This document shows, one piece after another, positions 33,253 through 57,298 of a stretch of 64,000 nt of DNA. Numbering within the stretch: the first letter of the stretch is position 1; each line of letters opens with the position of its first letter. The notes under the pieces are model-generated. The model ran no database searches. It had not been told where the DNA came from and worked only from the letters and a program-made list of their open reading frames with translations. The stretch comes from Labedella populi. GTDB lineage: Bacteria; Actinomycetota; Actinomycetes; Actinomycetales; Microbacteriaceae. The stretch lies in assembly GCF_004078655.1 (NCBI RefSeq), contig NZ_RZNC01000004.1, positions 62,001-126,000 of the forward strand, read 5' to 3'. The position numbers and the translations under genes were made by a program.

Positions 33253-33309
33253 CCCCCCGCAATGGGGGTGGGGACACATCTGTGCCCGATCCACTATCTG
33301 AGCTACTCT
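33253..33309 (+). promoter_or_regulatory. EPS promoter element A (C-run/G-run) and -10 of the priming transferase
   Basis: CCCCCCGCAATGGGGG at 33253-33268, 35 nt before a TACTCT -10 box (33304-33309). No recognisable -35 hexamer is present, so activation by a bound factor is likely. Same element and orientation as at 42655, 55555 and 57298. The rest of the gap 33163-33502 holds a ~190-nt leader with a short upstream frame. Confidence 0.6.
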
Positions 33310-33431
33310 CAGGTTACGGAGTTGAGGCCACCTCACATTCCGCAACCCGGACGCCTCCCGCCCACTCCCGACCCGAACCGGAGTGGTCGGGAGGCCATCC
33401 GATCTCGTCGTGACAGAGGGGGTCCACGACC

Positions 33432-33506
33432 ATGACATCAATGGTTTCCAGACATCGGGAGCTCGCATTGTGCGACGGCTCCCGGAAGGGACAGGATCCG
33501 GCATGA
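33432..33506 (+). CDS. Possible 24-residue leader peptide upstream of the priming transferase
   Basis: ATG at 33432 preceded by GAGGGGG. It runs 24 codons (begins MTSMVSRHRELALC) and its TGA at 33504-33506 overlaps the ATG of the sugar transferase (ATGA). The stop-start overlap suggests translational coupling or a leader-peptide control point. Expression is not proven. Confidence 0.4.
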   Translation: MTSMVSRHRELALCDGSRKGQDPA

Positions 33507-35014
33507 CGGAGCTCAAGCACCATCTGCCCGCCGACGACCTCGGTCGTTTCCTCCCCACCTCCTGGCTCACGCGCCGAGGGGTCCAGACCACGTCGGAGCG
33601 CCAGTGGGCGCAGTCGCACCGAGCCAGGCTGCTCGCGAACGACGTCATCGTCATCGCCTCCTCTCTGGGGCTCGCCTACCTCGTGCGCTCGCTCTTCGAA
33701 CCGGGCGCGCCGGACTCCACATGGGTCCTCACCTACGCCGTCGCGTCGACCATCATCCTCACGGTGTGGATCGCGGCGCTCGGCGCCCACCGCACTCGGG
33801 ACATCCGCGTGATCGGGATCGGGGCGAGCGAGTACAAGCGCGTGACCAACGCGAGCATCATCGCCTTCGCCGTCCTCGGCATCCTGCTCTTCACGATGCA
33901 AGCCGAGGTCTCCCGGGTCTTCTTCTTCACGGCACTCGGTGCTGGCACCGTGGGGCTCGTCTCCACCCGGTGGGCGTGGCGCCACTGGTTGCTCCGGCAG
34001 CCGGCCCGCGACCGCTTCCTCTCGCGGGCGATCGTCGTCGGCGGAGTGGACGAGGCGGAGTACGTCGTCCGCCAGATCAACGACAAGTCGCGAGCAAGCT
34101 ACAACGTCGTGGCCGCGACCGTCTCCGACAGCGCATCGTCCCACATCGAGGTCGGTGACCGTCGTGTCCCGATCGTCGGCGAGCCCGCCGGGGTCGCGAC
34201 ACTCGCTCGCAACCTGCAGGCCGACGCCGTCATCGTCGCGGGGGCCGCGAGTCGGAACCCGTCCTACATCCGGAGCCTCAGCTGGGACCTCGAAGGCACG
34301 GGAACCGAACTGGTCCTCGCCGCCCAGCTCACCGATGTCGCCGGACCGCGCATCCACTTCCGCCCCGTCGACGGACTTCCCCTCATGCACGTCGAGATCC
34401 CGCAGTTCGACGGACTCAAGCACGTCGTCAAGCGCTCGTTCGACATCGTGGCGTCCGGGATCGGCCTTCTCCTCCTGGCGCCGCTCTTCGGCATCATCGC
34501 CCTCGCCGTGAACGCCGACAGCCCGGGTGGTGTGCTCTTCCGTCAGGAACGGGTGGGCAAGGGCGAGCGCAGCTTCACCATGCTCAAGTTCCGCACGATG
34601 GTACCGACGGCCGAGCAGGACCTCGCCGCGCTCCTCGAGGCGAACGAGGGCAGCGGCCTGCTGTTCAAGATGAAGAACGACCCCCGCGTCACCCGCATCG
34701 GCCGTATCCTCCGCAAGTACTCGCTCGACGAACTTCCCCAGCTCTGGAACGTCTTCGTCGGTGACATGAGTCTCGTCGGTCCCCGGCCGCCGCTCCCTCG
34801 TGAGGTGAGCGACTACGAGAGCCACGTCCGTCGCCGCCTCTACATCAAGCCGGGCCTCACCGGCATGTGGCAAGTGGGAGGGCGGAGCGACCTCAGCTGG
34901 GAGGAGAGCGTCCGGCTCGACCTCTACTACGTCGAGAACTGGTCGCTCGTCGGCGATCTCATGATCCTGTGGCGCACCGTCAAAGTCGTCACGCAGCCCT
35001 CGGGAGCCTACTGA
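33503..35014 (+). CDS. Undecaprenyl-phosphate sugar phosphotransferase (priming transferase)
   Basis: WbaP/CpsE-type polyisoprenyl-phosphate hexose-1-phosphate transferase, 503 residues, which starts repeat-unit assembly on the lipid carrier. Four N-terminal transmembrane helices (residues ~35-190) precede a Rossmann-like middle domain, a further membrane helix (SFDIVASGIGLLLLAPLFG, ~312-330) and the C-terminal catalytic domain with LFRQERVGKGERSFTMLKFR, SLDELPQLWNVFVGDMSLVG and PRPPLPREV. The ATG at 33503 has AGGA 6 nt before it. A GTG at 33383 would give a longer form without a good binding site. First gene of the EPS locus, ending in TGATG with the next gene. Confidence 0.92.
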   Translation: MTELKHHLPADDLGRFLPTSWLTRRGVQTTSERQWAQSHRARLLANDVIVIASSLGLAYLVRSLFEPGAPDSTWVLTYAVASTIILTVWIAALGAHRTRDIRVIGIGASEYKRVTNASIIAFAVLGILLFTMQAEVSRVFFFTALGAGTVGLVSTRWAWRHWLLRQPARDRFLSRAIVVGGVDEAEYVVRQINDKSRASYNVVAATVSDSASSHIEVGDRRVPIVGEPAGVATLARNLQADAVIVAGAASRNPSYIRSLSWDLEGTGTELVLAAQLTDVAGPRIHFRPVDGLPLMHVEIPQFDGLKHVVKRSFDIVASGIGLLLLAPLFGIIALAVNADSPGGVLFRQERVGKGERSFTMLKFRTMVPTAEQDLAALLEANEGSGLLFKMKNDPRVTRIGRILRKYSLDELPQLWNVFVGDMSLVGPRPPLPREVSDYESHVRRRLYIKPGLTGMWQVGGRSDLSWEESVRLDLYYVENWSLVGDLMILWRTVKVVTQPSGAY

Positions 35015-36255
35015 TGAACGACGCCACCGACCGCACGCTCGCGGGAGAGGCCGGAAGCGCCTCCGATCGCTTGCACATCGCCATGATCGGCACGCGCGGC
35101 GTGCCCGCGGCCTACGGAGGGTTCGAGACGGCCATCGAGGAGATCGGTCGCCGACTCGTCGAGCGCGGCCACTCCGTGACCGTCTACTGCCGCTCGAAAG
35201 ACGGCGAGAAGCCGAGCGAGCACCTCGGCATGGAGCTCGTGCACCTCCCGGCCCTGCACGTCAAGATCGCCGAGACGCTCAGCCACACCGGGCTGTCGAC
35301 AGTGCACGCCGTCACCCACCGGGCCGCCGACGCCGCCTTCGTATTCAACGCCGCCAACGCGCCCTTCGTCCCGCTGCTGCGGGCCCGGGGTATCCCGACG
35401 GCGGTGCACGTCGACGGTCTCGAATGGAAGCGCGACAAGTGGGGCGGCGCCGGCAAGCGGTACTACCGCGCCGCCGAGTCTGCCGCCGTGCGCTGGTCGG
35501 ATGCCCTCATCGCCGACGCCCAGGGCATCGCGGACTACTACGACGACGAGTTCGGCGTCCCGACCGAACTCATCAGCTACGGTGCCACGATCATCGAGGA
35601 CCCCACCTCCCACAAGATCGCGGAGATCGGACTCACCCCCGGCGGCTTCCACCTCGTCGTCGCTCGGTTCGAGCCGGAGAACCACGTCCGCGAGATCGTC
35701 GAGGGCTACACCGCGAGCGATGCACACCTCCCGCTCGTCGTCGTGGGCTCGGCGCCGTACTCCGCCGAGTACACGGCCGCGATCGAGCGCATCGCGTCGG
35801 CCGACGACCGCATCATGATGCTCGGCGGCGTGTGGGACCAGCAACTGCTCGACGAGCTGTATGCCCACGCGCTCACCTACGTCCACGGACATTCCGTCGG
35901 CGGCACGAACCCGTCCCTGCTCCGAGCGATCGGAGCGGGAACGGCCGTGCTGGCCTGGGACGTCGGCTTCAACCGGGAGGTCACGCTCGAGGACGGCCGC
36001 TTCTTCGGAAGCCCCGCCGCGCTCGCTCGTCTGCTCGAGTCGGCGGAGTCCGACGTCAGCGCGACGCTCGCCACGGGTGATCGGCTGCGTGTCCGTGCCG
36101 AGACGACGTACGACTGGGACCTCGTCACGACGGGCTACGAACGCCTCGCCGCCCGGCTCGCCTCCGGCTACTCCATCCGTCCGATCGCACGATCGGCACG
36201 ACGCTCCTCGACATCGGTCCGGTCCGGCACGCCCGTCGCGACCCCCGTCTCGTGA
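35014..36255 (+). CDS. Glycosyltransferase with DUF1972 N-terminus (rhamnosyltransferase-like)
   Basis: A 413-residue GT-B glycosyltransferase. The N-terminus MIGTRGVPAAYGGFETAIEE (~residue 23) is the DUF1972 motif of Cps2T-like beta-1,4-rhamnosyltransferases, usually the enzyme adding the second sugar of an EPS or capsule unit. VARFEPENHVREIVEGY and HSVGGTNPSLLRAIGAG form the nucleotide-sugar-binding half. Its ATG overlaps the previous stop by one base and its end overlaps the next start (GTGA). Cytosolic face of the membrane. Confidence 0.88.
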   Translation: MNDATDRTLAGEAGSASDRLHIAMIGTRGVPAAYGGFETAIEEIGRRLVERGHSVTVYCRSKDGEKPSEHLGMELVHLPALHVKIAETLSHTGLSTVHAVTHRAADAAFVFNAANAPFVPLLRARGIPTAVHVDGLEWKRDKWGGAGKRYYRAAESAAVRWSDALIADAQGIADYYDDEFGVPTELISYGATIIEDPTSHKIAEIGLTPGGFHLVVARFEPENHVREIVEGYTASDAHLPLVVVGSAPYSAEYTAAIERIASADDRIMMLGGVWDQQLLDELYAHALTYVHGHSVGGTNPSLLRAIGAGTAVLAWDVGFNREVTLEDGRFFGSPAALARLLESAESDVSATLATGDRLRVRAETTYDWDLVTTGYERLAARLASGYSIRPIARSARRSSTSVRSGTPVATPVS

Positions 36256-37481
36256 GCGGCGCCACCGTGGGACGTCTCACACGGCCCGTCGAGAGGACCG
36301 TCGCACCGGCAGCGGCCGGATCCTCCTACCTGCTCGCGCATCCGAGCGCGGACCTCTACGGTTCCGACCGCGTCCTGCTCGAATCCGTCGAAGGCTTCGT
36401 CCGGGCCGGTGCCCACGTCACCGTCACCGTACCGGCCGACGGTCCACTCGTCCCCCTCCTCGAAGAGCGCGGAGCCGACGTCGTCTTCACCCCCACGCTC
36501 GTCCTGCGGAAGAGCCTGCTCACCCCCCGCGGACTCGTCGCGCTCGTCTCCCAGACCGTCGCGGGCCTGCGTGCGGGCCGACGGCTCATCCGCGAGGTGC
36601 GGCCGAACGTCGTCTGGACGAACACGATCACCATCCCTCTGTGGACGGTGCTCGCCCGCCTCTTCCGGATCCCGTCGGTCGTGCACGTGCATGAGGCCGA
36701 GGGATCCGCGTCGAGGGTCATGATGCGCGCTCTCGCACTGCCCTTGCTGCTCGCGGACCAACTCGTCGCGAACAGCAATTACAGTGCGGGAGTCCTGCGC
36801 GACTCCTTCGCTCGTCTCGGCGACCGCTGCACCGTCGTCTACAACGGCGTCATCGGTCCGGAGACGGTCAGCATGCCGCGCGACACCCTCGAGGACGAGT
36901 TGCGCGTGCTCTACGTCGGCCGACTCTCCCCCCGCAAGGGTCCTGACCTCGTCATCGAGGCGATCGCGGCGCTCCGCGAACGCGGCATCCCCGCTCGCCT
37001 CGATCTCATCGGAGCCGTCTTCCCCGGGTACGAATGGTTCGAGCAGGAGCTGCGGGACTCGATCGCGACCCACGATCTGCGCGACCGGGTGCGCCTCCGC
37101 GGCTTCCAGAACAGCCCCTGGCCGTTCCTCGCCGCGAGCGATGTGCTCGTCGTGCCGTCACGACTCGACGAGCCGTTCGGCAACACCGCGGTCGAGAGCG
37201 TGCTCGCCGCTCGCCCCGTGGTCGTGAGCGACACGTCCGGCCTGCGTGAGGCGGCGTGGGGGTACCGTTCGGCGCAACAGGTCGAACCCGGCGACGCCCG
37301 CGACATCGCCGACGCGCTCGAGCGTGTGTGGAACGACTGGGCGCGGTTCCGGAGCGAGGCGATCAGCGATGAGGCCGTCGCTCGCGAGCGCCACTCCGTC
37401 TCGACCTACCAGCACTGCATCGCCGACGCCGCGGCCGCCGTTGGGGTCGGCCGACGATCGCGGGCGCGGGCTCATGGGTGA
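36252..37481 (+). CDS. Glycosyltransferase family 4 protein
   Basis: A 409-residue GT-B enzyme. The N-terminal acceptor half contains HPSADLYGSDRVLLESVEGF. The donor half has VLYVGRLSPRKGPDLVIEAI (~220-239) and the E-x7-E-like SRLDEPFGNTAVESVLAARP (~300-319), hallmarks of GT4. It transfers a hexose in repeat-unit assembly; donor not predictable. GTG at 36252 overlaps the previous stop. The last ~60 residues are basic. Confidence 0.88.
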   Translation: MSGATVGRLTRPVERTVAPAAAGSSYLLAHPSADLYGSDRVLLESVEGFVRAGAHVTVTVPADGPLVPLLEERGADVVFTPTLVLRKSLLTPRGLVALVSQTVAGLRAGRRLIREVRPNVVWTNTITIPLWTVLARLFRIPSVVHVHEAEGSASRVMMRALALPLLLADQLVANSNYSAGVLRDSFARLGDRCTVVYNGVIGPETVSMPRDTLEDELRVLYVGRLSPRKGPDLVIEAIAALRERGIPARLDLIGAVFPGYEWFEQELRDSIATHDLRDRVRLRGFQNSPWPFLAASDVLVVPSRLDEPFGNTAVESVLAARPVVVSDTSGLREAAWGYRSAQQVEPGDARDIADALERVWNDWARFRSEAISDEAVARERHSVSTYQHCIADAAAAVGVGRRSRARAHG

Positions 37482-37544
37482 GACGGCAGCACCGGCTGCT
37501 CTCCGGCACCACGATGCGGCGGATCCCCTCGCGGCGCACACCCG

Positions 37545-38192: not shown

Positions 38193-38297
38193 GACCGCTC
38201 TCCCTTCGATACCGGCCAATCCTAACCGGCCCGTCGAAGGCACAACGCACAGGACGACCGGCGCCCGAGCCGGTCGGACCACCAGAGGGGGACTCGA

Positions 38298-39701: not shown

Positions 39702-39725
39702 CACGCGCGAGCCGCACCCCGTCGG

Positions 39726-39770
39726 AAAGACCCCGTAGCTTCCCCCTTTTGGGGGGCGACGGGGTCTTTT
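39726..39770 (+). terminator. Terminator after the Wzz/BY-kinase gene
   Basis: aaagaccccgt pairs with acggggtcttt, enclosing a second hairpin (ccccc tttt ggggg), followed by TTT. The inner C-run/G-run should not be confused with the EPS promoter element. Confidence 0.88.
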
Positions 39771-39838
39771 GCCGTCTCCGAGCGCGGCATTGCATGAGTC
39801 ATCCTCGATTTCCAGTGGACCCGACACGGAGGGCTTGC

Positions 39839-39913
39839 TACTCTTTCGACTGCCGTGTACCACGTTCGGGGGACAATACCTCCGCGAGGTGCACATCTCT
39901 CCACCCCCCGAAC
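39839..39913 (+). promoter_or_regulatory. -10 box and spaced inverted repeat upstream of the beta-helix gene
   Basis: GCTACTCT at 39837-39844 contains the same -10 hexamer (TACTCT) as the priming transferase promoter. Downstream, GTTCGGGGG (39864-39872) and CCCCCCGAAC (39904-39913) form an inverted repeat 31 nt apart in the leader. Confidence 0.45.
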
Positions 39914-39968
39914 ATGTCGACGACGGTCACCATCCCGTTGGACCGTCAGCCCATCGCAGAGGACAGCA

Positions 39969-42662
39969 GTGACCCACCGCCGAAATACGTTCAACGCGCC
40001 CGAGACGGACGCCCCTGTGTCAGCCACGACCCGTCGAGCTACACGTGAGGCGCGCCGCAGATCCGCGCGCACCTCCCGCGGAGCCGCCCTCGTGACGGCC
40101 GTCGCCGCCGCGGGTGCGCTTGCGGTCGGCAACCTCGCGTACGCCCCGCAGACCGCGAGCGCGGCCGGGTACGTCGAGGGCGATGTCATCGCCTCCGATT
40201 CCTTCTCTCGCTCCCAGGCCTCGGGCTTCGGGTCCGCCGACGAGGGAGGAGCATACGCGACGTCCACGACGGCGGGCCTCTCGGTCGGCTCGGGCGTCGG
40301 CACGATCGAGTTCCCCGACGGCGGGGAGGGCCGCAGTGCGGTGCTCACCTCCGCATCGTCTGCGGACGTGAGCACGGGGATCACCATCACCGCGCCTGAC
40401 TCGCCGACGACGGGTGGTGGCTACTACACCACCCTGCAGGCCCGGTCGAGCGGCGGGGGATACTACGGAGCCAAGCTGCGGGTGTCGCCCGACGGCAACG
40501 CCTCATTACGCATCGTTCGCGTGGACCGCGCGAGCGGCGAGACGAAGACTCTCGCAGCTCCCGTCGTCGTCGCCGGCGGCGTCGACGGTGGTACCTCGCT
40601 GCGCATCGACCTCGAGGTCGTCGGCTCCGACGAGGTGACGGTCAAGGCGCGCGCCTACGTGACCGGCGGCGACGCGCCGGACTGGCAGCGGACGGGCACC
40701 GACACGAGTGATCGTCGCCTTTCCGCCGGTGGCGTCGGGCTGTGGTCATACCTGTCGATGGGTACCGAGCCGCTCGCCCTCGAGCTCGACGACCTCCGGG
40801 CGGTCGAACTCGTCGCCGACACGAGCGCTCCCGCCCCCACGACCCCGGCCCCGGTCCCCGCCCCGACGACCCCGGCCCCGAGCCCGACGACCCCGGCCCC
40901 GAGCCCCACGCCGACGGAGGAGCCGTCGACGCCTGCTCCGGCGCCCACGCCGACCCCCACACCGACCCCCGCACCCACGGAGCCGGTCTCCTCGGGGAAC
41001 CGCGGGTCCGCACCGGTCGGTTCCACGTCCTACTCCGTCCCGGCGGGAGCCGTCTACGTCTCCTCCTCCGCCCGGTCGGAGGGCAACGGCACGCTCACCT
41101 CACCGTTCGCGACGGTCGAACGGGCCGTCGACGCGTCGAAGAGCGGTGCGACGATCGTCCTGCGCGGCGGCACGTACCACGAATACGTCGAGATCCCGAA
41201 GAACAAGCGCGTCACCATCCAGTCGTATCCCGGTGAGGCCGTGTGGTTCGACGGCAGCGAGAAGATCGGCGGCTGGACGAAGAGCTCGACCGGATGGGTC
41301 GTCGACGGCTGGGACTACGACTTCGACACGAGTCCGACCTTCACGAAGGGCGCACCCGACAACACGGACGAGTCGACGAGATTCGTCGACCCGAAGTACC
41401 CGCTCGCAGCCCACCCGGATCAGGTTTGGGTCGACGGAGCCCCCCTCACCGAGGTGGGGTCGCGCTCCGCCGTCACCGACGGCACCTTCTACGTCGACCG
41501 AGGAAGGGATCAGCTCGTCCTCGGCACCAACCCCTCGGGTCGTGACGTGAGGGCGAGCACGCTTCAGGTCGGGCTCAACGTGCTCGCCGACGGCACCGTC
41601 ATCCGCGGTATCGGCGTGCAGCGCTACGCCACGTCCGTCTGGCAGAAGGCGCCCCTTTACACGCAGGCCTCCGACGTCCTCATCGAGAACGTCGTGTCGC
41701 GCGCCAATGCGGCGTCCGGCATCTACGCGTCACGCGGATCCGACGTCACCTATCGCTTCCTCACGCTCTCGGACAACGGCCGGTCGGGCGGCGGCGCCGT
41801 CTACTCCGACGACTTCGCCCTCGAGCACTCCGTCGTCGTCGACAACAACACCCAGCACTTCAAGCAGCTCCCGGGGTCCGGAGGTTTCAAGGTGACACGA
41901 GCGCGCGGTGTCACCGTCGCGGACAACGAGATCCGCGACAACCTCACGAACGGCTTGTGGTTCGATGAGTCGGTCTACGACATCCGCGTCACCGGGAACG
42001 ATATCTCGGGCAACGCCGTCGGCCTGTGCCTCGAGCTCTCCGCCAAGATCGTCGTCGCGGACAACCGCATCCACGACAACCGGTCGCTCGGCCTGTTCAT
42101 CCAGAACTCGGGTGACATCCAGGCGTGGAACAACACGATCGTGGACAACGATGGAGCTCCCGTCACCATCGTCCAAGACCCCCGGCGGCAGACGAACCCG
42201 TCCGACGCCGGCCACGACCCTCGCCAGAAGCAACCCGACATGACCGTGCCGTGGCTGACGCAGGACATCACGATCTCGAACAACGTGCTCGGTGGCGCCA
42301 CCGAGGGCGGTCTGTTCCACGTCGTCGACCAGCAGAAGAAGCTGACGGCCGAGCAGATGCGGATCACCACGAACGGCAACCTGTACCAGAACGCGAACAC
42401 CGGGCGCTACACCGTGGTGCGGTGGGCGAACGGCGGATCGGGGCTCACCTACTACCGCAGCCTCGAGGAGTTCACGCAGGACACCGGGCAGGAGAAGCGC
42501 TCCGACTTCATCCAGGGTGCCGACGCCGTCGGTCCGGACTTCTCCCTCACCGGACAGGCGAGCGACCTCGCGCGGGACATCTCCATGCCCGTCCCGTCCC
42601 GGCTCTCCGGACTGCTCGCGGCGCTCGGCCTTCCCGCCGTGGGCGCATCACCCACCCCGTGA
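39969..42662 (+). CDS. Secreted lectin-like and right-handed beta-helix protein
   Basis: An 897-residue exported protein. The basic N-terminus and hydrophobic stretch (residues ~35-60) end in a signal-peptidase-like TASA. Residues ~65-280 form a jelly-roll/concanavalin-like module (DSFSRSQASGFGSADEGG, then GGGYYTTLQARSSGGGYYG) that is repeated in the large secreted protein at 50026. A Pro/Thr linker lies at ~287-339. The rest (~357-810) is a parallel beta-helix with repeated VTVADNEIRDN/ITISNNVLGG turns, the fold of polysaccharide lyases and epimerases. A role in trimming or binding the EPS is inferred. GTG at 39969 has AGAGGA 4 nt upstream. The stop lies inside promoter element B. Confidence 0.82.
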   Translation: MTHRRNTFNAPETDAPVSATTRRATREARRRSARTSRGAALVTAVAAAGALAVGNLAYAPQTASAAGYVEGDVIASDSFSRSQASGFGSADEGGAYATSTTAGLSVGSGVGTIEFPDGGEGRSAVLTSASSADVSTGITITAPDSPTTGGGYYTTLQARSSGGGYYGAKLRVSPDGNASLRIVRVDRASGETKTLAAPVVVAGGVDGGTSLRIDLEVVGSDEVTVKARAYVTGGDAPDWQRTGTDTSDRRLSAGGVGLWSYLSMGTEPLALELDDLRAVELVADTSAPAPTTPAPVPAPTTPAPSPTTPAPSPTPTEEPSTPAPAPTPTPTPTPAPTEPVSSGNRGSAPVGSTSYSVPAGAVYVSSSARSEGNGTLTSPFATVERAVDASKSGATIVLRGGTYHEYVEIPKNKRVTIQSYPGEAVWFDGSEKIGGWTKSSTGWVVDGWDYDFDTSPTFTKGAPDNTDESTRFVDPKYPLAAHPDQVWVDGAPLTEVGSRSAVTDGTFYVDRGRDQLVLGTNPSGRDVRASTLQVGLNVLADGTVIRGIGVQRYATSVWQKAPLYTQASDVLIENVVSRANAASGIYASRGSDVTYRFLTLSDNGRSGGGAVYSDDFALEHSVVVDNNTQHFKQLPGSGGFKVTRARGVTVADNEIRDNLTNGLWFDESVYDIRVTGNDISGNAVGLCLELSAKIVVADNRIHDNRSLGLFIQNSGDIQAWNNTIVDNDGAPVTIVQDPRRQTNPSDAGHDPRQKQPDMTVPWLTQDITISNNVLGGATEGGLFHVVDQQKKLTAEQMRITTNGNLYQNANTGRYTVVRWANGGSGLTYYRSLEEFTQDTGQEKRSDFIQGADAVGPDFSLTGQASDLARDISMPVPSRLSGLLAALGLPAVGASPTP

Positions 42663-42699
42663 ATGGGGGAATGTGAGCATTCGTCACCTCGGCTAGTCT
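42655..42699 (+). promoter_or_regulatory. EPS promoter element B and -10 of the polymerase operon
   Basis: CCCCGTGAATGGGGG at 42655-42669, 24 nt before TAGTCT (42694-42699). The element overlaps the TGA stop (42660-42662) of the beta-helix gene. No good -35 hexamer. It drives the polymerase/acyltransferase/glycosyltransferase operon. Confidence 0.65.
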
Positions 42700-42752: not shown

Positions 42753-44078
42753 GTGCAAACGAGCACACGAACGTCCCCGCAACGCCCGCTGCCCCCGCGC
42801 CCACTCGGCGTGCGGGACAGCGGCGACGTGCGGTTCACGGCACCGCGGCCGCTCGAGCAGATCATCGCGATCGTGCTGCCCGTGAGCCTCGGCGTCGGCT
42901 ACACGATCTCGAACGGCGTCCAGGTCGGGCACGTCGTCGCGTTCCTGCTCCTCCCGGTGTGGTTCTCGTCCGTCCGCCGCTTCCGGGGGGGCCGGATCGT
43001 CCTCACCCTCGGAGCCATCGCTCCGATCGGTGGCGCCGTCCTCACGGCGGTGGGTGCCGTGGACCATTCGGTCTCCCCCGTCGCCCTCTTCGTCAACAGC
43101 GTCGAGATCATCGGACTCGTGCTCGGCATCGGCTCGCTCTTATGGGCCCGTCGGGTCATCGGGGGACCGTGGGTCGCGGTCTTCTTCGGCCTCGGCATGG
43201 TCGCCGGTATCCCGTTCGGGAATGGCCTCAGTTCGGCCAATCCCTGGCGATTCGCCTACTCCCTCCCCCTGACGGTTCTCCTGCTCGCCATCGCCTGGCA
43301 GCTCAACAGCAGGGTGGCTGCCGTCATCGCCGCCGGTGGGTTGTGCATCGCGTCGGCGCTCAACGACGGTCGCGGGGCGAGCGCCATGCTCGCGATGACG
43401 GCCATGCTCGTCCTGTGGCAGGTCCGCCCCACCGCGGCGGGGCGTCGGGCGTCGGCCGTCCGCACGATGCTGAGCATCGCGGCGCTCGCGTCGGTCGTCT
43501 ACACCGTGGCGCAAGCGGTCATCCTCGGGGGGCTCCTCGGCGAGCGCACGCAAGAGCGCACCCAGGCCCAGATCGACACCTCGGGCAGTCTGATCCTCGG
43601 CGGTCGCCCGGAGGCCGGCGCCACCGTCAGTCTCATCGGCGAGCAGCCCCTCGGCTACGGCTCCGGTATCGTCCCGAACCTGTCGGACATCCTCACGGCG
43701 AAGACGGGCATGAGCGCCATCGGCTATTCGCCGAACAACGGGTACGTCGAGAACTACATGTTCGGGTCCACTTTCGAGGTGCACTCGATCGTCGGTGACC
43801 TCTGGATCCTGTACGGCCTTGCCGGCGCCGCGCTCGCCCTCGTGTTCTTCTTCACGACGTTCCAGATCCTCAGCCACGGGCTCGCCCATCGCGCCGCCAG
43901 TGCCCTCATCATCTGGCTCGCCGTCCGGATGCTGTGGAACCTCCTGTTCAGCCCCGTGCATTCCTCGGTACCGCTCATCATGCTCTTCCTCGGCATCGGA
44001 CTCGTCGCCCGCGCAACGGAACACACCCTCGCAGGACCCCCGCATCCCTCGCCACACCACGCGATCGGAGCCCGATGA
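42753..44078 (+). CDS. Wzy-like polysaccharide polymerase / O-antigen ligase family
   Basis: A 441-residue multi-pass membrane protein with about 11-12 helices and a large extracytoplasmic loop (ERTQERTQAQIDTSGSLILG through the IGYSPNNGYVENYMFGSTFE segment), the layout of Wzy polymerases and O-antigen ligases. It would join lipid-linked repeat units outside the membrane. GTG at 42753 has GGGAG 6 nt upstream. Its end overlaps the acyltransferase start (ATGA). The family is sequence-diverse, so the assignment rests on topology and context. Confidence 0.8.
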   Translation: MQTSTRTSPQRPLPPRPLGVRDSGDVRFTAPRPLEQIIAIVLPVSLGVGYTISNGVQVGHVVAFLLLPVWFSSVRRFRGGRIVLTLGAIAPIGGAVLTAVGAVDHSVSPVALFVNSVEIIGLVLGIGSLLWARRVIGGPWVAVFFGLGMVAGIPFGNGLSSANPWRFAYSLPLTVLLLAIAWQLNSRVAAVIAAGGLCIASALNDGRGASAMLAMTAMLVLWQVRPTAAGRRASAVRTMLSIAALASVVYTVAQAVILGGLLGERTQERTQAQIDTSGSLILGGRPEAGATVSLIGEQPLGYGSGIVPNLSDILTAKTGMSAIGYSPNNGYVENYMFGSTFEVHSIVGDLWILYGLAGAALALVFFFTTFQILSHGLAHRAASALIIWLAVRMLWNLLFSPVHSSVPLIMLFLGIGLVARATEHTLAGPPHPSPHHAIGAR

Positions 44079-49885: not shown

Positions 49886-49938
49886 GCACGAGAACGGTGA
49901 TGGTGCACGTCCCACGCGCACCATCACCGTTCTCGTGC
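49886..49938. terminator. Bidirectional terminator
   Basis: Perfect 21-bp arms (49886-49906 and 49918-49938; core cgagaacggtgatggtgc), placed between the convergent GT2 and large secreted-protein genes. Confidence 0.9.
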
Positions 49939-49965
49939 ACGCACGGGTGGCGGAGACACGACGAA

Positions 49966-50003
49966 CCGGGTGCGTTTCCCTGAGGGGAGGGACCCGCACC
50001 CGG
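49966..50003 (-). terminator. Second hairpin, end of the large secreted-protein gene
   Basis: ccgggtgcg (49966-49974) pairs with cgcacccgg (49995-50003), enclosing tccct/aggga pairing. It lies 22 bp after the stop of the minus-strand gene. Confidence 0.7.
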
Positions 50004-50025
50004 TGGTCTTCGCCGATCCGACCGG

Positions 50026-53000
50026 TCAGAACCGCTTCACGACGTAGTCGGCGAACCGGATCGTGCCGGGAGCGGTGCTCGACCCGGACACGTAGAACAC
50101 GAGTCCCGTGGTCCCGGCCGTCTGCAGCGCCGCCGTGGTGTCGGTTCGCGACACCTGCCACGTCGCGGGCTCGGTCTGCGCATCAGTCCAGGCCTTCGCA
50201 CGGATCGTCGTCGGCGCCGTGCCGAACACCTGCACTCGGATCGTCACGGTGGAGTCCGCCGCGTACGTCGTGCCCGGCAGGTTGAGCGTCTGCAGCTTCG
50301 TCCCACCGCGGGCGAGCTGCAGCTGGATGGTGCCGTTCGCGGTCAACAGGGCGACGGCGGAGTACTTCTCCGATCCCACCTGGCGACCGACGACCGTGAC
50401 GTACTGGCCGCCTCCCGTCGTGAGCGCCGGGACCACGAAGGACACGACCGAATCGGTCGACGACTCGGAGACGGTGTTGAGGGCGGCCGAGCGGGAGGCG
50501 CCGGCGGCGTTCGTGATGACACCGGCACCGTTCGTGACGGAGAACCCGCTCGCACCACCGCCCACCGTCCAGGGTGCCCCGGACGAAGAGGTGCCCCATC
50601 CGCTCGTGACGGACCGCTGCTCGAACGAGTCGGCCGCGACCGTCTCGGCGTCGGGTGGCGTCGTCACGACGACCGACCGTGTGGTGGTCTCCGTCGCACC
50701 GTCGTCGTCCGTCACCGTGAGTGTCACCGTGTATGTCCCCGCGGCGGCGTACGAGTGCGTCGCCGTGGCGCCGGTCGCCGTGGCGCCATCACCGAAGTTC
50801 CAGGCGTAGCCCGCGATCGAGCCGTCTGCATCGGTCGACGCCGACGCGTCGACCGCGACCGACAGCTCGGTCGGCGTGGCCGTGAACGACGCGGTGGGCG
50901 CCTCGTTCTCGGGCGGCGTGATCACTCCGCCACCGGGGACGACGGCCGTGAAGTCGTCGAACCGGACCGGGATCGGGCCTGTGGTGGTCGAGCCGGAGAT
51001 GTAGCCGGTCGCACCGATCTGGCCGGCGGACTGGAGTGCCGCCGTCGAGTCGGTCGTACTCAACTGCCATGCCGTCGGCTCGGTCTCCCCCGACACCCAG
51101 GCCTTCGTCGTGATCGTCGTGGGCGAGGTTCCCGTCGCCTCGACCTTCAGTCGGAGGGTCGTGCTCGGAGTGACGGCGAGTCCCGGGACGTTCGACTGGG
51201 AGATCACGGTGCCGCTGCGCAGGATCTGGAGCAGGACCGCACCGTTCTGGATGCGCACTCGAGCCGAGTAGTACGCCGTGTTCACCTGGCGGGCGACGAG
51301 GGAGATGTACGCTCCGCCGCCGTTCGCGACGACCGGCGTCGCGACGTCGGCTGCGAGGGTCACATCGGTGACCGACACCTGGTTGAGGCGGGCGTTGCGG
51401 GTGTGACCGGCCGGCAGCGTCATGACGCCGTCGCCCCCCTGGACGGAGAAGGCGGACGCTCCACCCGTCACGGTCCACGGGCCTCCCGTGTCGGCGGTGC
51501 CCCACGCGCTCGTCCCGGTCCGCTCGAAGGCATCCGCGGCGATCGTCGATGAGACGGGCGGAGCGGCGACGGTCACGGACTTGGTGGTCTGCGCGGTCGC
51601 CCCCGTGTCGTCGGTCACCGTGAGGGTGACGGTGTAGTCGCCCGCGGCGGCGTAGGTGTGGTTCGCGGTCGCGCCGGTCGCTGTGCCCTCGTCGCCGAAG
51701 TCCCAGGCGTACGACGCGATCGTCCCGTCGGGGTCGTTCGACGCGGAACCGTCGACGCTCACCGTCAGGCCGGATCCGCTCGCCGTGAAGCTCGCGGTCG
51801 GATTCTGGTTCGCGGGAACCGTCGCCGAGACGATGCGGGTCGTCGTCGCGGTCCCCCCGCGGTTGTCCGTCACGGTGAGGGTCACGAGGTAGTCGCCGGC
51901 CGAACCGTAGGTGTGGGTGGTCGTCGCCCCCGTCGCGGTCTCGCCGTCACCGAAGTTCCAGGCGTAGGACGCGATGGTCCCGTCGGCGTCGCTCGAGGCC
52001 GAGGCGTCGAAGCTTCCCGCGAGGTCGTCCACGGTCGCCGTGAACGACGCGGTGGGCGCCGTGTTCGGAGCCGCCACGGCGACCTCGCGGGTCGTCGTCG
52101 CGGTGCCACCGCGATTGTCGGTCACGAGGAGGGACACCGTGTAGGTGCCGCCCTCGGCATACGAGTGGGTGATCGTCGATCCGGTACCCGTCGTCCCGTC
52201 GCCGAAGTCCCACATCGAGGACACGATCGTCCCGTCGGGGTCCGTCGACGCCGAGGCGTCGAGTGCGACGGAGAGGTCGGTCGCACCGGCCGTGAAGGAC
52301 GCCGTGGGGGCGATGTTGGGCGCGATACCGAGGCCGAGTTCGTGGTGCTGCCCGACCTGCTCGGACGTGAGGGGCGCCGCGTAGACGGCCACCTCGTCGA
52401 TGGCGCCCGCGAAGTACGGCGCGGTGCCGCCCCACGTGGTGTCGCCGCCGATCCGCCAGTAGCCGGTGTAGTCCTGCGCGCCGGTCTGCGGGTTGGTGCC
52501 GACGGAGGCGCCGTCGATGAACATGTTCATGCCCGCGTTGGACTGCTGCGCCACGACGTGGTGCCACTCACCGTCGTTGAACGCGGCGCTCGACGTGACC
52601 GTATTGGCCTGGCCCGTCCAGGTTCCGAAGGTCAGTCGACCGTCGTTCTCCATGTAGACGTGACGGTCGTAGCCGCCGGAGCCGCCGGTCGGGCTCGCTC
52701 CGAAGCCCACGATCTTGCCGCCGCGGGTCGTCGTGGTCTTGAACCAGGCCTCGACGGCATACGTCGTCGGGTTCGAGAACGTCGCGTTGCTCGCGACGCC
52801 GGCCTCGTTCCAGCCCCACCACTCCTCCGTCGGGGCGAAACGCGCCGCGGTGTCGGCGTTGCCGCGGAGCGCGCCCGTCACACCCTTCTCGACGAGTCCC
52901 GTGTACGTGCCCGGGTTGCCGAACGGACCGGAGTCGACGGCCTCCGAGCCGCTCGACTCGCCCAGCCGGTAGTAGAGCGTCGGGTCGAGGGCGAAGACGG

Positions 53001-55422
53001 AGGCGCCGTAGGCGTCCGTCGGGGCGACCGGGATCGTGGACGCGCGTCCCGAGGCCACGAAGTGCGCATCGATCTGCTGACGCGTCAGCACACTCGAGTA
53101 CACCGCGACGTCGTCGATCGCACCGGCGAAGAACTTGCTCGCCGGCTGGTTCGGCCAGCCGCCGACGTTGTCGCCGCCCACCCGCCAGTAGCCGGTGAAG
53201 GCTTGGCCTGCCGTGGTGTCGGCACGCGATGCGACCTTCTTCGAGTCGACGTAGAGTTGCATCCCGGCGGGACCCATGCTCGCCACGACGTGGTGCCACT
53301 GATCGTCGTTGTAGCTCGCGCCGCTCGTCACGACCCGCGTGTTGCCCGTGTAGACACCGAAGTTGATGCGGCCGGAGTTGTCCATGTAGACGTGCCGGTC
53401 GTAGGAGGTCGAGTCGCCGGTGCGGTTGTTGCCGAACCCGATGATCTTTCCGCCGGACGTGCTCGTCGTCTTGATCCATGCCTCGGCCGTGAACGTGTTC
53501 GGGCCGGGCTGGACAGCCGTCGAGACGCCGAATGTGCCGTCCGTCCCGCCGAAGGTCGTCGCGGTGTTCGGCGATGATGCATCCTGACCGGCCGTGCCGC
53601 GCGTCGTGGTGCCGGAGAGCGTCACGTCGTCGCCGGCCGCCCAGTCGTATCCGACCGTGCCGGAGGACTCGCCGAGCGGCCAGAACGAGGCCGGGTTGTC
53701 GTCGAGCACCTCTTGCGCGTAGTCGCTGATCTCGCCGTCCTCGGCGATCGTGACGCTCACGAGGTTGCCTTGCGTCGCGTTGCCGTACGGGTCCGTCACC
53801 CGGATCCGATACGTATAGGTGGCGCCGGGAGTGAGCCCCGTGTCCGTGAAGGACATCAGCGGTCTGGTGTAGAAGTTCGACGACGCCGTGGTCGTGTAGA
53901 CGGGGTTGTTCGTCTGGCTGTTGCGGATCACAGTGTACGTGAGTTCCGCGTTGTCACGATCGTGATTCGCCTGCCAGGCGATGCGGGCCGTGCCGCGGCT
54001 GAACGAGACGACGTTGGGGACGAAGTCGGCGCTGTTGAGGCGCGGACCGTCGTCGTTCGGCGCGATGTCCTTCGTGGCGAAGCGGACGAGGCCCTGCTGA
54101 CGCACACCGTTCACGGTCGTGAACTCACCGCCGTAGAGAACGTACTTGCCGGCGACGAGGACATCCCATGGGCCCTGCGATGCACCGGAGGCCTGACCCG
54201 TGTTGAAGGTCGGGAACCAGTTGAGGAGCGTCGGGGACGGGGTGCCGTTGAAGTTGTAGTAGCCGTGGGGGTCGGCCGTGAGCGTCCCCGTCGTGGCCTT
54301 CGTGAAGGCGATGGCGCGGTAGAAGGACCACGGGTCGGTCTGGGGGAAACCCCCGACGTTGCCGCAGTAGTGGGCGTGACCGGCGGTGTAGACGACGTCG
54401 TCGGCCGGCGAGACCGAGTAGCTGTCACCGTGGCAGTCCTCCACCCACTGCAGCTCGCCGCCGTTCCAGTCGGCCTTGAAGGTGCCCTCGAGGTTTCCGC
54501 CGGAACCGAAGACGTAGCCGGTCCCGTAGACACTCGTGCCATCGGACGCGAGGGAGTTGATGTTCGCGTCCTCTCCGCCGTTGCGGATGAGGTTGTTGAT
54601 GGCCCATGGCAGCAGGCCGCCGGTCGTCGTGTCGACGGCGGCGAGCCCGTAGCCGGGGTTGCTCGAGCCGTTGACCGTCGTGAACGCTCCACCCAGGACG
54701 ATCTTCGATCCGTCGGGCGACATCGTCATGGCGGCGACGCTGCCGCCGACGGCCGCGGGGGCCCACGGTGTCATCGCCCCGTTCGAGGCGGCGAACGCCG
54801 CCGCCCCGAAGCGGTCCTGACTGTTGATGGCCGTGAACGCTCCACCCGTGTAGACCGTCGTGTCGGTCGCGACGATCGCGTTGACGCGGCGCGTGACGTT
54901 CGGCTTGAAGGTCGTCACGAGAGCGCCGGTCGCGATGTCGAATGCCGCGATGTACGTGCGCGTGACACCGTCGACCTGCGTGAAGAGACCCCCGACGTAG
55001 AGGCGCTTGCCATCCGGCGAGGCCGCGACGGTGCGTGCCTGCTGGTTGAACTGCGGCGCGAACGGCAGCAGGGCGCCCGTCGTCAGGTCGTAGGCCAGGA
55101 AGTTCTTGCGAGCCACCGTGTTGACGCCCGCGTTCGAGCCCGCGGGGCGCGCCGTCTCGAACTTGCCGACGACATAGACGGTGTTGCCGACGACGGTCTG
55201 GTCCCACACGACGCCATCGATCTGGGGCGCGGGGAGCGGGTCACTCGATACCGTTTCGGGCGTGCCGGCAGGCGGGCGGGTGTCCGCGACCGCTGGCTGG
55301 AGGGAGAGCATGCTCAGCACGATCGCGGACACCGTGACGCCGACGAGCGCGATCAGTCGCGCTCCCCGGCGGCTGCGGGGCTCGAATGTTGAGGCTTCAG
55401 GGACCGGCAACGATGGGGTCAT
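50026..55422 (-). CDS. Large secreted beta-propeller/FN3/LamG/PKD protein
   Basis: A 1,798-residue exported protein. The signal peptide ends near residue 47 (AVAD). A propeller-like region of GGAFTTVNG-type repeats spans ~48-455 and a fibronectin-III-like domain ~466-560. Two LamG/concanavalin domains begin near 567 and 804 (FWPLGESSG, YYRLGESSG). Three PKD repeats follow at ~1037-1290 (APTASFTA, WDFGDG, TVTLTVTDD), then a jelly-roll module (~1292-1490), a fourth PKD (~1505-1590) and a second jelly-roll (~1594-1798) like the one in the beta-helix protein. There is no LPxTG or membrane anchor. Probably an extracellular, sugar-binding matrix protein of the EPS. The start ATG 55422 gives a standard signal peptide; GTG 55455 is possible. 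Confidence 0.85.
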   Translation of the reverse strand: MTPSLPVPEASTFEPRSRRGARLIALVGVTVSAIVLSMLSLQPAVADTRPPAGTPETVSSDPLPAPQIDGVVWDQTVVGNTVYVVGKFETARPAGSNAGVNTVARKNFLAYDLTTGALLPFAPQFNQQARTVAASPDGKRLYVGGLFTQVDGVTRTYIAAFDIATGALVTTFKPNVTRRVNAIVATDTTVYTGGAFTAINSQDRFGAAAFAASNGAMTPWAPAAVGGSVAAMTMSPDGSKIVLGGAFTTVNGSSNPGYGLAAVDTTTGGLLPWAINNLIRNGGEDANINSLASDGTSVYGTGYVFGSGGNLEGTFKADWNGGELQWVEDCHGDSYSVSPADDVVYTAGHAHYCGNVGGFPQTDPWSFYRAIAFTKATTGTLTADPHGYYNFNGTPSPTLLNWFPTFNTGQASGASQGPWDVLVAGKYVLYGGEFTTVNGVRQQGLVRFATKDIAPNDDGPRLNSADFVPNVVSFSRGTARIAWQANHDRDNAELTYTVIRNSQTNNPVYTTTASSNFYTRPLMSFTDTGLTPGATYTYRIRVTDPYGNATQGNLVSVTIAEDGEISDYAQEVLDDNPASFWPLGESSGTVGYDWAAGDDVTLSGTTTRGTAGQDASSPNTATTFGGTDGTFGVSTAVQPGPNTFTAEAWIKTTSTSGGKIIGFGNNRTGDSTSYDRHVYMDNSGRINFGVYTGNTRVVTSGASYNDDQWHHVVASMGPAGMQLYVDSKKVASRADTTAGQAFTGYWRVGGDNVGGWPNQPASKFFAGAIDDVAVYSSVLTRQQIDAHFVASGRASTIPVAPTDAYGASVFALDPTLYYRLGESSGSEAVDSGPFGNPGTYTGLVEKGVTGALRGNADTAARFAPTEEWWGWNEAGVASNATFSNPTTYAVEAWFKTTTTRGGKIVGFGASPTGGSGGYDRHVYMENDGRLTFGTWTGQANTVTSSAAFNDGEWHHVVAQQSNAGMNMFIDGASVGTNPQTGAQDYTGYWRIGGDTTWGGTAPYFAGAIDEVAVYAAPLTSEQVGQHHELGLGIAPNIAPTASFTAGATDLSVALDASASTDPDGTIVSSMWDFGDGTTGTGSTITHSYAEGGTYTVSLLVTDNRGGTATTTREVAVAAPNTAPTASFTATVDDLAGSFDASASSDADGTIASYAWNFGDGETATGATTTHTYGSAGDYLVTLTVTDNRGGTATTTRIVSATVPANQNPTASFTASGSGLTVSVDGSASNDPDGTIASYAWDFGDEGTATGATANHTYAAAGDYTVTLTVTDDTGATAQTTKSVTVAAPPVSSTIAADAFERTGTSAWGTADTGGPWTVTGGASAFSVQGGDGVMTLPAGHTRNARLNQVSVTDVTLAADVATPVVANGGGAYISLVARQVNTAYYSARVRIQNGAVLLQILRSGTVISQSNVPGLAVTPSTTLRLKVEATGTSPTTITTKAWVSGETEPTAWQLSTTDSTAALQSAGQIGATGYISGSTTTGPIPVRFDDFTAVVPGGGVITPPENEAPTASFTATPTELSVAVDASASTDADGSIAGYAWNFGDGATATGATATHSYAAAGTYTVTLTVTDDDGATETTTRSVVVTTPPDAETVAADSFEQRSVTSGWGTSSSGAPWTVGGGASGFSVTNGAGVITNAAGASRSAALNTVSESSTDSVVSFVVPALTTGGGQYVTVVGRQVGSEKYSAVALLTANGTIQLQLARGGTKLQTLNLPGTTYAADSTVTIRVQVFGTAPTTIRAKAWTDAQTEPATWQVSRTDTTAALQTAGTTGLVFYVSGSSTAPGTIRFADYVVKRF

Positions 55423-55512
55423 GAAAATCTCGCGTCTCTGGATAAGCGGGTGCACCGACTAGCGGGGCGATGGCTCAGAGAACTGAGGGCCGCTCACATC
55501 GGGTGTGGCTAA

Positions 55513-55555
55513 ATGCTAGCTTCCCTCACGTTTTTTCATCCCCCCCCATTCGGGG
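55513..55555 (-). promoter_or_regulatory. EPS promoter element C and -10 of the large secreted-protein gene
   Basis: Minus strand CCCCGAATGGGGGGGG (55555-55540) followed, 24 nt after the fifth G, by a TAGCAT -10 box (55518-55513). Upstream and downstream the gap 55456-55732 shows no other gene. The element and its flank (TGAGGGA) match element D. Confidence 0.65.
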
Positions 55556-55732
55556 CTGAACACGGCCCCCGAGCGGGGACGGAGTACGTCCTGCGGCCAC
55601 GGTCACCGCACCGCCGCCGCGCCGACTCCCGCCGGCCCCAACGGGCGACGACAAGGCTCGCAGCGAGGACGAAAGGGGCGGGTGCGTCGACGTCCGTCGA
55701 CCCACCCGCCCCCGCTCACCCGGGTGCTCGTC

Positions 55733-56422
55733 CTATTGCGGTGCACTTCCCTCGAAGACGACGGCCGGCTCCGCCGCCGTGTAGTCGACCGTTATCCGTA
55801 CGCGGTCGCGGTCCTCCGTCGGGACGTTGTAGACGAACGTGCCGGTGGCCGTCTCTCCGGGAGCAACCTCGGCGGGGAGCGCAACACCGCCGGGCTCGGC
55901 GAGCTCGATCGCGGGGATCTGCTCGTCTCCGTAGAACACGTTGGTGACGGCACTGATGAGCGGATACGCCTCGTCGCTGTCATTCGTGAACGTGACCGAG
56001 AATCGCAGCGACGGGCCGGCAATCTCGCCCGGCATTGACGCCTCACCCTCGACGGACTCGAGATCCGACATCGAGACGGTGACGCCGTCGTCGATGGGGG
56101 CCTCGTCGCCGAACTCGAGGATGTCGTCCGTCACCTCTCCATCGGCGGCGGGCTCCTCGGACGCATCCGTGTCCGCGCTCGCGCTCGCGCTCGGCCCGGG
56201 GTCGTCGGACGCCTCCTCGGAGGGCTCGGCCGACGCCGTGGGCGGCGCACCCGGAGCCGGGGAGTCCGCCGACGTGACCGACCAGACGACGAGCGCCGCG
56301 ACGAGCGCGAGCACGACGACGGACACGAGGATGACGAGCGCCCGACGTCGAGAGCGCGCCTCGCCGTCCTCGGCGACCGGGCTCGGATCGATCGGATCGT
56401 TCACGGGGGTCTTGTCACTCAT
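55733..56422 (-). CDS. Membrane-anchored hypothetical protein with Ig-like outer domain
   Basis: A 229-residue protein: ~25 cytosolic residues, one transmembrane helix (ALVILVSVVVLALVAALVVW), a Ser/Pro/Glu/Asp-rich spacer (~50-100) and a beta-rich outer domain (LRFSVTFTNDSDEAYPLISA, then EVAPGETATGTFVYNVP) resembling DUF4352-type Ig-like folds. ATG at 56422 overlaps the phosphotransferase stop (ATGA), so the two are made together. Function not recognised; surface role near the EPS inferred. Confidence 0.78.
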   Translation of the reverse strand: MSDKTPVNDPIDPSPVAEDGEARSRRRALVILVSVVVLALVAALVVWSVTSADSPAPGAPPTASAEPSEEASDDPGPSASASADTDASEEPAADGEVTDDILEFGDEAPIDDGVTVSMSDLESVEGEASMPGEIAGPSLRFSVTFTNDSDEAYPLISAVTNVFYGDEQIPAIELAEPGGVALPAEVAPGETATGTFVYNVPTEDRDRVRITVDYTAAEPAVVFEGSAPQ

Positions 56423-57183
56423 CGTGCATCTCCGATCTGGGGGGCGTCGAGCGCCACCATGTCTCTGAACCATTTGACTGCGGCGAGCAGGAGGAAGCCC
56501 GCGTTCGCCGCGAAGAGCAGCGTATAGACGCCGAAGAACACGAGGTGCGCCCCGAGCAGCGCGAACACGAGGCAGAGGAACCCGTAATCGGTCGGGATCA
56601 CCAGGAATGATCGCAATCGCGATCCGCCACCCGTCTCGGCCGTCCCCTTTCGGCCGCGCACGTATTTCAACTGGTCGTTGAGGATCATCGCGAAGAATGT
56701 GACGTTCGCGACGATCGAGAACCCGATCGGGACGAGCAACCAGGCCTCGGACGAGAGGTCGAAGAACCGGAAGGCGGCGATGAGCACGGCGAGGTGCAGG
56801 CTCGAGATCTTGAGCGCGTCGACGACGTGGTCGAGCCACTCCCCCGCGGCGGAGCCGCCTCCGCGCAACCGGGCGACCTGGCCGTCGGCGGAATCGAAGG
56901 CGTAGCCGATGGCGAGGAGGAGCCAGACGAGCACGCCGGACCACCACGCGGGCGGGACCGTCGCGATGATCGCGATACCCGAGAACGTGAAGGCCGCGCT
57001 GACGGCCGTCACGGCGTTGGGCGTCATTCCCGCGAGATAGGCGCCGGCCGCGATGAGGCGGCCCACACGGCGGTTGACGTAGATGGAGTACGCCGGCGCC
57101 CCGCGCGCCGCGCCCTTCTGCGCGGAGGCCAGTCGCGCGACGGTCGCGCGGTATCCCTCCACGGGTCGCTCTGTCGTGGTCAT
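56419..57183 (-). CDS. CDP-alcohol phosphatidyltransferase family protein
   Basis: A 254-residue membrane enzyme with about six helices. The catalytic motif DSADGQVARLRGGGSAAGEW...DHVVD (D-x2-D-G-x2-A-R...G-x3-D-x3-D, residues ~95-124) is intact. The family moves a phospho-alcohol from a CDP carrier to an acceptor alcohol. The divergent neighbour encodes a cytidylyltransferase that could supply the CDP-linked donor. The substrate is open: inositol, glycerol or a polymer alcohol. Under EPS promoter element D. Confidence 0.88.
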   Translation of the reverse strand: MTTTERPVEGYRATVARLASAQKGAARGAPAYSIYVNRRVGRLIAAGAYLAGMTPNAVTAVSAAFTFSGIAIIATVPPAWWSGVLVWLLLAIGYAFDSADGQVARLRGGGSAAGEWLDHVVDALKISSLHLAVLIAAFRFFDLSSEAWLLVPIGFSIVANVTFFAMILNDQLKYVRGRKGTAETGGGSRLRSFLVIPTDYGFLCLVFALLGAHLVFFGVYTLLFAANAGFLLLAAVKWFRDMVALDAPQIGDAR

Positions 57184-57232
57184 CGATCACTCCCTCGTCC
57201 GCTCGGCGCACGGCGGTGCTCCGAGTCAGGCC

Positions 57233-57298
57233 AGACTACCCGCGCGAAAAGCCGTTTAACGAGGATCCCTCATTTCATACTCCCCCCAGTTCACGGGG
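57233..57298 (-). promoter_or_regulatory. EPS promoter element D and -10 of the phosphotransferase operon
   Basis: Minus strand CCCCGTGAACTGGGGGG (57298-57282), then 44 nt after the fifth G a TAGTCT -10 box (57238-57233). The flank TATGAAATGAGGGA resembles that of element C. No -35 consensus. Confidence 0.65.

Follow-up and report, generated by a model that had tools for sequence, protein, structure and literature searches.

A C-run/G-run element at a near-constant distance from the -10 box of exopolysaccharide promoters in Labedella and other Microbacteriaceae

In this paper we describe a short DNA element, a run of C followed after a few bases by a run of G, which stands at several exopolysaccharide (EPS) promoters of one gene cluster in four Labedella genomes and, in many genera of the family Microbacteriaceae, at the promoter of the EPS priming transferase. 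The element was found in a stretch of 64,000 nucleotides from Labedella populi (contig NZ_RZNC01000004.1), to which we refer as the window. The window is part of a 3.42-Mb genome in 15 contigs (G000), which we compared with three other Labedella genomes (G001, G002 and G003). On balance, we think that the element is the predicted site of one activator, working at TANNNT promoters without a -35 hexamer, and that a second factor would act on palindromes of the form TGAG-N5-CTCA.

An earlier note on this DNA had placed four C-run/G-run sequences, here called A to D, before EPS genes. All four lie at the coordinates and on the strands that it gave, followed by the -10 candidates that it named (TACTCT, TAGTCT, TAGCAT and TAGTCT at A, B, C and D, respectively), and good -35 hexamers are indeed lacking: at a spacing of 16-18 base pairs (bp), the best matches to TTGACA are 3, 3, 2 and 3 of 6. 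A pattern fitted post hoc to these sites, CCCCN(1-4)AAN(0-1)TGGGG, occurs at four distinct sites in the window, against a mean of 0.045 and a maximum of 1 in 200 dinucleotide shuffles of the window. Over the whole 3.42-Mb genome it occurs at seven distinct places, four of which are A to D, and a reversed control pattern occurs at five. The bare motif is therefore too common to find targets, and what is unusual is its clustering at EPS promoters. Since the pattern was fitted to the very sites that it describes, we rely on relatives of the window for the real tests.

For these tests we scanned the DNA upstream of the priming transferase for CCCCN3-7GGGG in several sets of loci: the 30 best by homology (3 of them Labedella), the next 40 matches (a few of which are second copies in one genome), and 80 named loci, comprising 55 from Microbacteriaceae and 25 from Micrococcaceae. 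The named and unnamed sets partly overlap; L168, for example, is G001. The element is present at 24 of the 30 best loci (mean 2.4 and maximum 7 in 200 shuffles), at 28 of the next 40 (shuffles 6.0, maximum 10; reversed pattern 6), and at 40 of the 55 named Microbacteriaceae loci (shuffles 6.1, maximum 11, in 60 shuffles; reversed pattern 6), against 2 of the 25 Micrococcaceae loci (shuffles 4.1). Counted among the 55 is L198 (JABBOD010000007.1), a contig titled as an Acidobacteria metagenome-assembled genome. This contig carries an EPS priming transferase of the Microbacteriaceae type, and its title is probably wrong.

The position of the element relative to the -10 box is nearly fixed at many promoters. 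Among 95 nonredundant elements at priming promoters, counting boxes 4-57 bp away from the first G of the G-run, 45 of 84 TANNNT boxes fall at 28-30 bp, where 4.7 would be expected if they were spread evenly; 44 of the 95 elements have a box at this distance. In 54 elements preselected for a box at 26-32 bp, a selection that bounds the values, the centre of the element lies 31.3-31.5 bp from the box with a standard deviation of 1.07, compared with 1.19-1.23 when either end of either run is used as the reference point. The last G in such elements stands on average 24 bp before the -10. No -35 hexamer accompanies these boxes, since the mean best match to TTGACA in 51 promoters, 2.27 of 6, equals that of shuffled spacers.

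When both strands are searched, in the window as well as in the 55 named loci, an element with a box at 27-31 bp is returned in 54 rows. Three other distance classes return 3, 4 and 5 rows, and the reversed element returns 2; a single element can account for two rows, as happens in L202 and L217. In 26 of the 54 rows the gene that follows has the cluster label of the priming transferase, and in three more it is a fragment of that gene, judged by eye. Other next genes encode a PKD protein (L211), a glycosyltransferase (L202, L211, L217) or a Wzy-like protein (L168, window), and further ones of EPS type encode an epimerase-like (L171) or acyltransferase-like (L193) protein. The next gene looks unrelated in L185 and in one row each of L199 and L239, and none is called in L195, L220 and two rows of L247.

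Within Labedella, all four promoter regions were located and aligned in G001, G002 and G003. Element A, in which CCTCACCCCCCGCAATGGGGGTG is identical in 4/4 genomes, is invariant over 23 bp and D over 24 bp; at B and C the runs are kept and the middle varies, with only three C in G002 at both sites. The distance from the first G to TANNNT, in the order G000 to G003, is 40, 40, 40 and 40 bp at A; 29, 28, 30 and 29 at B; 29, 29, 29 and 30 at C; and 49, 49, 49 and 49 at D. The letters of the box vary across genomes (TACTCT/TAATCT at A, TAGTCT/TAGAAT at B, TAGCAT/TACCAT/TACGAT at C, TAGTCT/TAACGT at D) and yet always conform to TANNNT, which supports these boxes. At C, G002 and G003 have a second TANNNT, 7 bp downstream of the first.

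The coordinates of these sites and of the genes that they precede are collected in Table 1. Since the beta-helix gene upstream of B ends at 42662, its last codons are overlapped by the element, and promoter B is thus partly intragenic. The Wzy-like membrane protein that follows B has no Pfam or NCBIfam match. A look-alike of the element, CCCCCTTTTGGGGGG at 39742, lies within a terminator-like hairpin (window 39715-39772).

Table 1. Elements, -10 boxes, palindromes and genes in the window (positions count from the first letter of the window).
Feature	Position	Strand	Remark
TGAG-N5-CTCA abutting the C-run of A	33240..33252	+	
Element A, priming transferase promoter	33253..33268	+	first G of G-run at 33264, 40 bp before -10
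TGAG-N5-CTCA over the -10 of A	33299..33311	+	
-10 box of A, TACTCT	33304..33309	+	TAATCT in two relatives
TGAG-N5-CTCA 3' of the -10 of A	33323..33335	+	
EPS priming glycosyl-phosphotransferase	33503..35014	+	PF02397 (longer frame 33383-35014); TIGR03025 above cut-off
Element B, polymerase operon promoter	42655..42669	+	overlaps 3' end of upstream beta-helix gene
TGAG-N5-GTCA variant at B	42673..42685	+	
-10 box of B, TAGTCT	42694..42699	+	29 bp from first G
Wzy-like membrane protein, first gene of B operon	42810..44078	+	named by position
Laminin-G-like and PKD domain protein	50026..55455	-	secreted by the look of its start
TGAG-N5-CTCA 3' of C	55484..55496	.	
-10 box of C, TAGCAT	55513..55518	-	29 bp from first G
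Element C, promoter of large secreted PKD/laminin-G protein	55540..55555	-	
CDP-alcohol phosphotransferase	56419..57183	-	PF01066
-10 box of D, TAGTCT	57233..57238	-	49 bp from first G; TA without final T at 29
TGAGGGATCCTCG, palindrome variant at D	57260..57272	.	the shared flank of the earlier note
Element D, CDP-alcohol phosphotransferase (49 bp) and opposite-strand tagD-like gene (32 bp)	57282..57298	-	
-10 box of tagD-like gene, TATCAT	57327..57332	+	32 bp from element D
TGAG-N5-CTCA adjoining the tagD-side -10	57335..57347	.	
Cytidylyltransferase, glycerol-3-phosphate cytidylyltransferase-like (TagD-like), divergent from D	57417..57872	+	TIGR01518 below cut-off

The four elements were said to share one orientation relative to their genes. 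This claim is weaker than it was made, because the element is near-palindromic and because D also faces a conserved divergent -10: the tagD-side box, TATCAT or TATGAT, stands 32 bp from D in 4/4 Labedella genomes. Element D is probably a two-way control site.

How far the element extends to other genes can be judged from the promoters of orthologues. Outside Labedella we considered only promoters whose intergenic DNA is 100 bp or longer, with gene starts taken from a simple gene caller. By this count the element stands at 29 of 49 priming-transferase promoters versus 43 of 304 promoters of other genes in those loci, the latter figure including divergent neighbours that share one intergenic stretch and are counted together. 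The expectation that orthologous promoters would keep the element is borne out across the family for the priming transferase; B, C and D keep it within Labedella, but their orthologues outside the genus are mostly without it. Second-glycosyltransferase and Wzz promoters have it in 4/12 and 2/6 cases, and it occurs at 0/2 tagD-like and 0/5 beta-helix promoters. We conclude that it is the promoter of the priming transferase which forms the conserved core; the evidence for a regulon of several promoters comes from Labedella and a few single loci. Multiple sites per locus occur, for example, in L202, L211, L217, L220 and L247, with few or no genes called beside those of L220 and L247. Separately, five loci (L201, L212, L220, L221, L247) have two elements 52-63 bp apart upstream of the priming transferase, the second having the centre TTT in L212, L220 and L247, TTCC in L221 and AGTACT in L201.

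A second conserved palindrome, TGAG-N5-CTCA, was missed in the earlier note. The flank ATGA...TGAGGGA which that note reported as shared by C and D is real, but it does not stand alone, being part of this wider palindrome. Exact copies number 5 in the window, against a mean of 0.73 and a largest value of 3 in 100 shuffles; genome-wide there are 16, including these 5, versus 21 for the control. At A the palindrome overlaps the -10, and at the tagD-like gene it follows the -10. It is found at 16 of the 30 best priming loci (shuffles 0.8, maximum 5), 7 of the next 40 (shuffles 1.8), 19 of the 55 named Microbacteriaceae loci (shuffles 1.9) and 0 of the 25 Micrococcaceae loci (shuffles 1.0). The element followed by TGAG-N6-TCA gives 41 rows in 29 of 150 family genomes, with 5 control rows, and a palindrome abutting the element gives 45 rows in 33 of 398 family genomes, versus 1 control row. 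Among 297 genomes of the order, a stricter composite occurs in 4 of 23 from the family (1 control row) and in 5 of 274 others (2 control rows), so that the composite is close to family-specific.

The composite also occurs at genes of other kinds. A sixth composite site (L073, G000:C2:98195-98330) stands 49 bp from TAGCGT or TACCGT in 4/4 Labedella genomes; it includes three TGAG palindromes clustered at G000:C2:98195-98321, adjoined by CCCCGGACTGGGG, which reads CCCCGTACTGGGG in the three relatives. One flank encodes a small secreted-looking protein with, by eye, an LAVTG-type motif and a hydrophobic tail, whose reading frame has no Pfam match. The other flank holds lipoprotein-like and large transporter-like genes (by eye) in G000, G002 and G003, and elongation factor Tu in G001. 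On the lipoprotein side, G000 and G003 have an extra palindrome with a C/G run facing it. In Labedella several EPS promoters thus have the element, as in the small EPS regulon proposed in the earlier note, but such a regulon would not be confined to EPS, since the sixth site serves surface-protein genes.

Outside the genus, the element followed by TGAG-N6-TCA occurs at 35 places. Assuming 3.4 Mb per genome, 0.54 of these would be expected no more than 20 kb from a listed priming transferase, and 1.08 no more than 40 kb from one; the observed numbers are 8 and 10, respectively. By eye, composite sites in other genera precede an Flp pilin (L088) and TasA-like proteins (L086, L113), and one lies by a flagellar sigma factor and flagellin (L112); in L089, a relative of L088, the pilin frame is uncalled and the same next genes follow. 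Others lie by the PKD orthologue (L106) and by Wzy-like orthologues (L124-L126). The same regulon may include the Flp-pilin-like, TasA-like and flagellar-looking genes, and several of the other composite rows are probably background.

The bare site CCCCCGAATGGGG (G000:C9:183976-183987; L009, L072), between genes that by eye are aminotransferase-like and membrane-protein-like, was left uncounted, as neither a TGAG palindrome nor a -10 at the usual distance was seen there; the three Labedella genomes that were aligned all keep it, together with an adjoining CGCCCGGAnACGGG block that is likewise conserved. Two other sites were taken as background: L001, which by eye lies within a gene resembling those for ABC transporter ATPases, and L002.

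These observations suggest the following mechanism. One activator, widespread in Microbacteriaceae, would bind the C-run/G-run element and aid RNA polymerase where a promoter has a TANNNT -10 but lacks a -35 hexamer. If the first T of the -10 is placed at -12, the centre of the element, about 31 bp before the -10, would be near -43 relative to the expected start, which is the place of a class II activator. At A, at the CDP-alcohol phosphotransferase promoter of D and at the sixth site, all further upstream than the main distance class, the bound activator would sit higher by about one or two turns of the helix. The TGAG-N5-CTCA palindromes, which overlap the core promoter or lie beside it, would be read by a second factor that would probably modulate or repress this promoter. 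The targets would make exopolysaccharide and other surface structures. A bolder version, possible but in our view doubtful, is that the activator is a Microbacteriaceae-specific master regulator of the cell surface, from a protein family not yet tied to such sites, which takes the place of the -35 at promoters for EPS, surface proteins, pili and, in places, flagella, and which is countered by the factor on TGAG-N5-CTCA.

Several observations weigh against an activator working in this manner. The element is absent at 15 of the 55 named Microbacteriaceae priming loci, and at 6 of the 30 and 12 of the 40 unnamed ones; of the 15 named loci without it, L182 and L197 still have CCCCC...GGG and a box near the usual place, and in L211 the element is found at other EPS genes. 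Outside Labedella it stands at 0/12 promoters of CDP-alcohol phosphotransferase orthologues (many D orthologues are internal to operons), 1/8 of PKD-protein orthologues and 0/2 of Wzy-like orthologues. No TANNNT lies at 28-30 bp from 51 of the 95 elements. Element A also has a TA without the final T (TATCTG) at 31 bp, and D has likewise a weaker TA at 29 bp, either of which may be the box in use, and the phasing at 40 and 49 bp rests on few promoters. A gap between the runs that ranges over 3-7 bp is unusual for one rigid dimer. The TGAG palindromes are less general than the element (16/30, 19/55 and 7/40 priming loci), and the two candidate regulator families considered below, RamA and CsoR, failed.

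It is important, therefore, to weigh other explanations of the same patterns. One factor might read both sequences, with TGAG/CTCA and GGGG/CCCC as half-sites of a single oligomer, for which CTCACCCC...GGGGTGAG is an example. At A and at L036, L037, L039, L041 and L043 the palindrome directly adjoins the C-run, always in the same 13-bp register, the sixth site is the mirror image of this register, and the joined pattern far exceeds its control (the 45 rows versus 1 reported above). However, only 32 of 91 elements have a palindrome within -60 to +90, and palindromes occur also at least 50 bp downstream, so that we consider a single reader of both sequences unlikely.

Slightly less probable still is that the element is the operator of a repressor that reads G-tracts, CsoR-like or other, which would cover the -35 region and keep EPS off. 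Type 2 operators of CsoR, which controls copper efflux, are inverted repeats of TAC and GTA around G-tracts, separated by X9, and hence G-tract pseudopalindromes which share the C-run/G-run form of the element (PMC3902906). Some family sites do have TA outside the runs, in 16 of 51 cases after the G-run and in 4 of 51 on both sides; these four, however, are sites with longer gaps, and the TAC-X9-GTA frame is absent at the element sites. Nor does a repressor require so narrow a spacing as is observed, and it leaves the missing -35 unexplained. A CsoR-family gene is present in 34 of 38 genomes and absent from G124, G055, G008 and G018. We rejected this family as the common regulator, as G124 and G055 both have the composite at the priming transferase.

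The fixed place of the element relative to the -10 could also mean that RNA polymerase or an alternative sigma factor reads it directly, in a class of promoter that needs no separate activator. We regard this as quite improbable: the last G, some 24 bp before the -10, is beyond the usual -35 spacing, and a sigma factor would not account for the sites conserved at 40 and 49 bp. Chance, or a bias towards G and C runs in a high-GC genome, would account for the three further genomic places of the fitted pattern beside a control of five, but is refuted for practical purposes by the shuffles, the reversed controls, the outgroup and the spacing.

The earlier note had proposed a dedicated activator. 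The element does fit an activator site, but no dedicated activator gene was found. The genes in the window and in the 55 named loci were grouped into clusters, and among the top 75 clusters, inspected by eye from the first 80 residues, no common regulator gene appeared beside the EPS loci. The clusters found in most genera are EPS genes, and the regulator-like ones (two MerR-like, one MarR-like, one response-regulator-like) have 3-4 members with 2-3 genus labels each, too few for a common regulator. The window itself encodes a RamA-like LuxR regulator (27716-28579, +; NF041673, E 1.2e-45, 155.8 bits, below the 500-bit cut-off) with GAF and GerE domains. Scoring the best 16 candidates of each genome found relatives in 17 of 150 family genomes; scoring all candidates found the RamA family in 1 of 38 selected genomes. 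We therefore rejected it as the common factor, the gene being too rare in the family; it could act in Labedella alone. The gene adjoins those for methylisocitrate lyase and 2-methylcitrate synthase.

Among the matches listed in the literature that we searched, which leaves out most subscription papers, none describes a cis-element for EPS control in Microbacteriaceae; papers on EPS control, including those listed for Clavibacter, were judged by title and the start of the abstract. The element offers a bait for fishing out its regulator, and the rule that its centre lies about 31 bp before TANNNT predicts targets in genomes of the family.

Finally, we compare the element with known systems. RamA of Corynebacterium glutamicum has surface-layer genes among its targets, and its runs are loosely spaced. 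According to the part of its description available to us, the RamA motif consists of GGGG or CCCC runs preceded by A, T or C, with no fixed frame stated from run to run or from run to -10 (PMC4847777). Such runs are present at our sites as well, but a motif this short does not discriminate. The BldM group I site of Streptomyces, TCACcCgnncGgGTGA, likewise has a C-run/G-run core, with TCAC/GTGA ends (PMC4125116), and site A of G001 and G002 comes near to it, reading TCACCCCCCGCAATGGGGGTGA. However, the BldM site is a fixed 16-bp palindrome, whereas the elements here have gaps of 3-7 bp and mostly other ends: TCA precedes the C-run in 11 of 51 family sites, and TCACcCgnncGgGTGA, compared by eye with the aligned sites, did not account for them. 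Among class II activators, CRP binds at -41.5 and LuxR near -42.5. The main distance class of our elements resembles these promoters in having a site near -42 at a constant spacing, as judged from predicted -10 boxes, in having a poor or absent -35 hexamer, and in placing the centre of the element about -43 from a predicted start.

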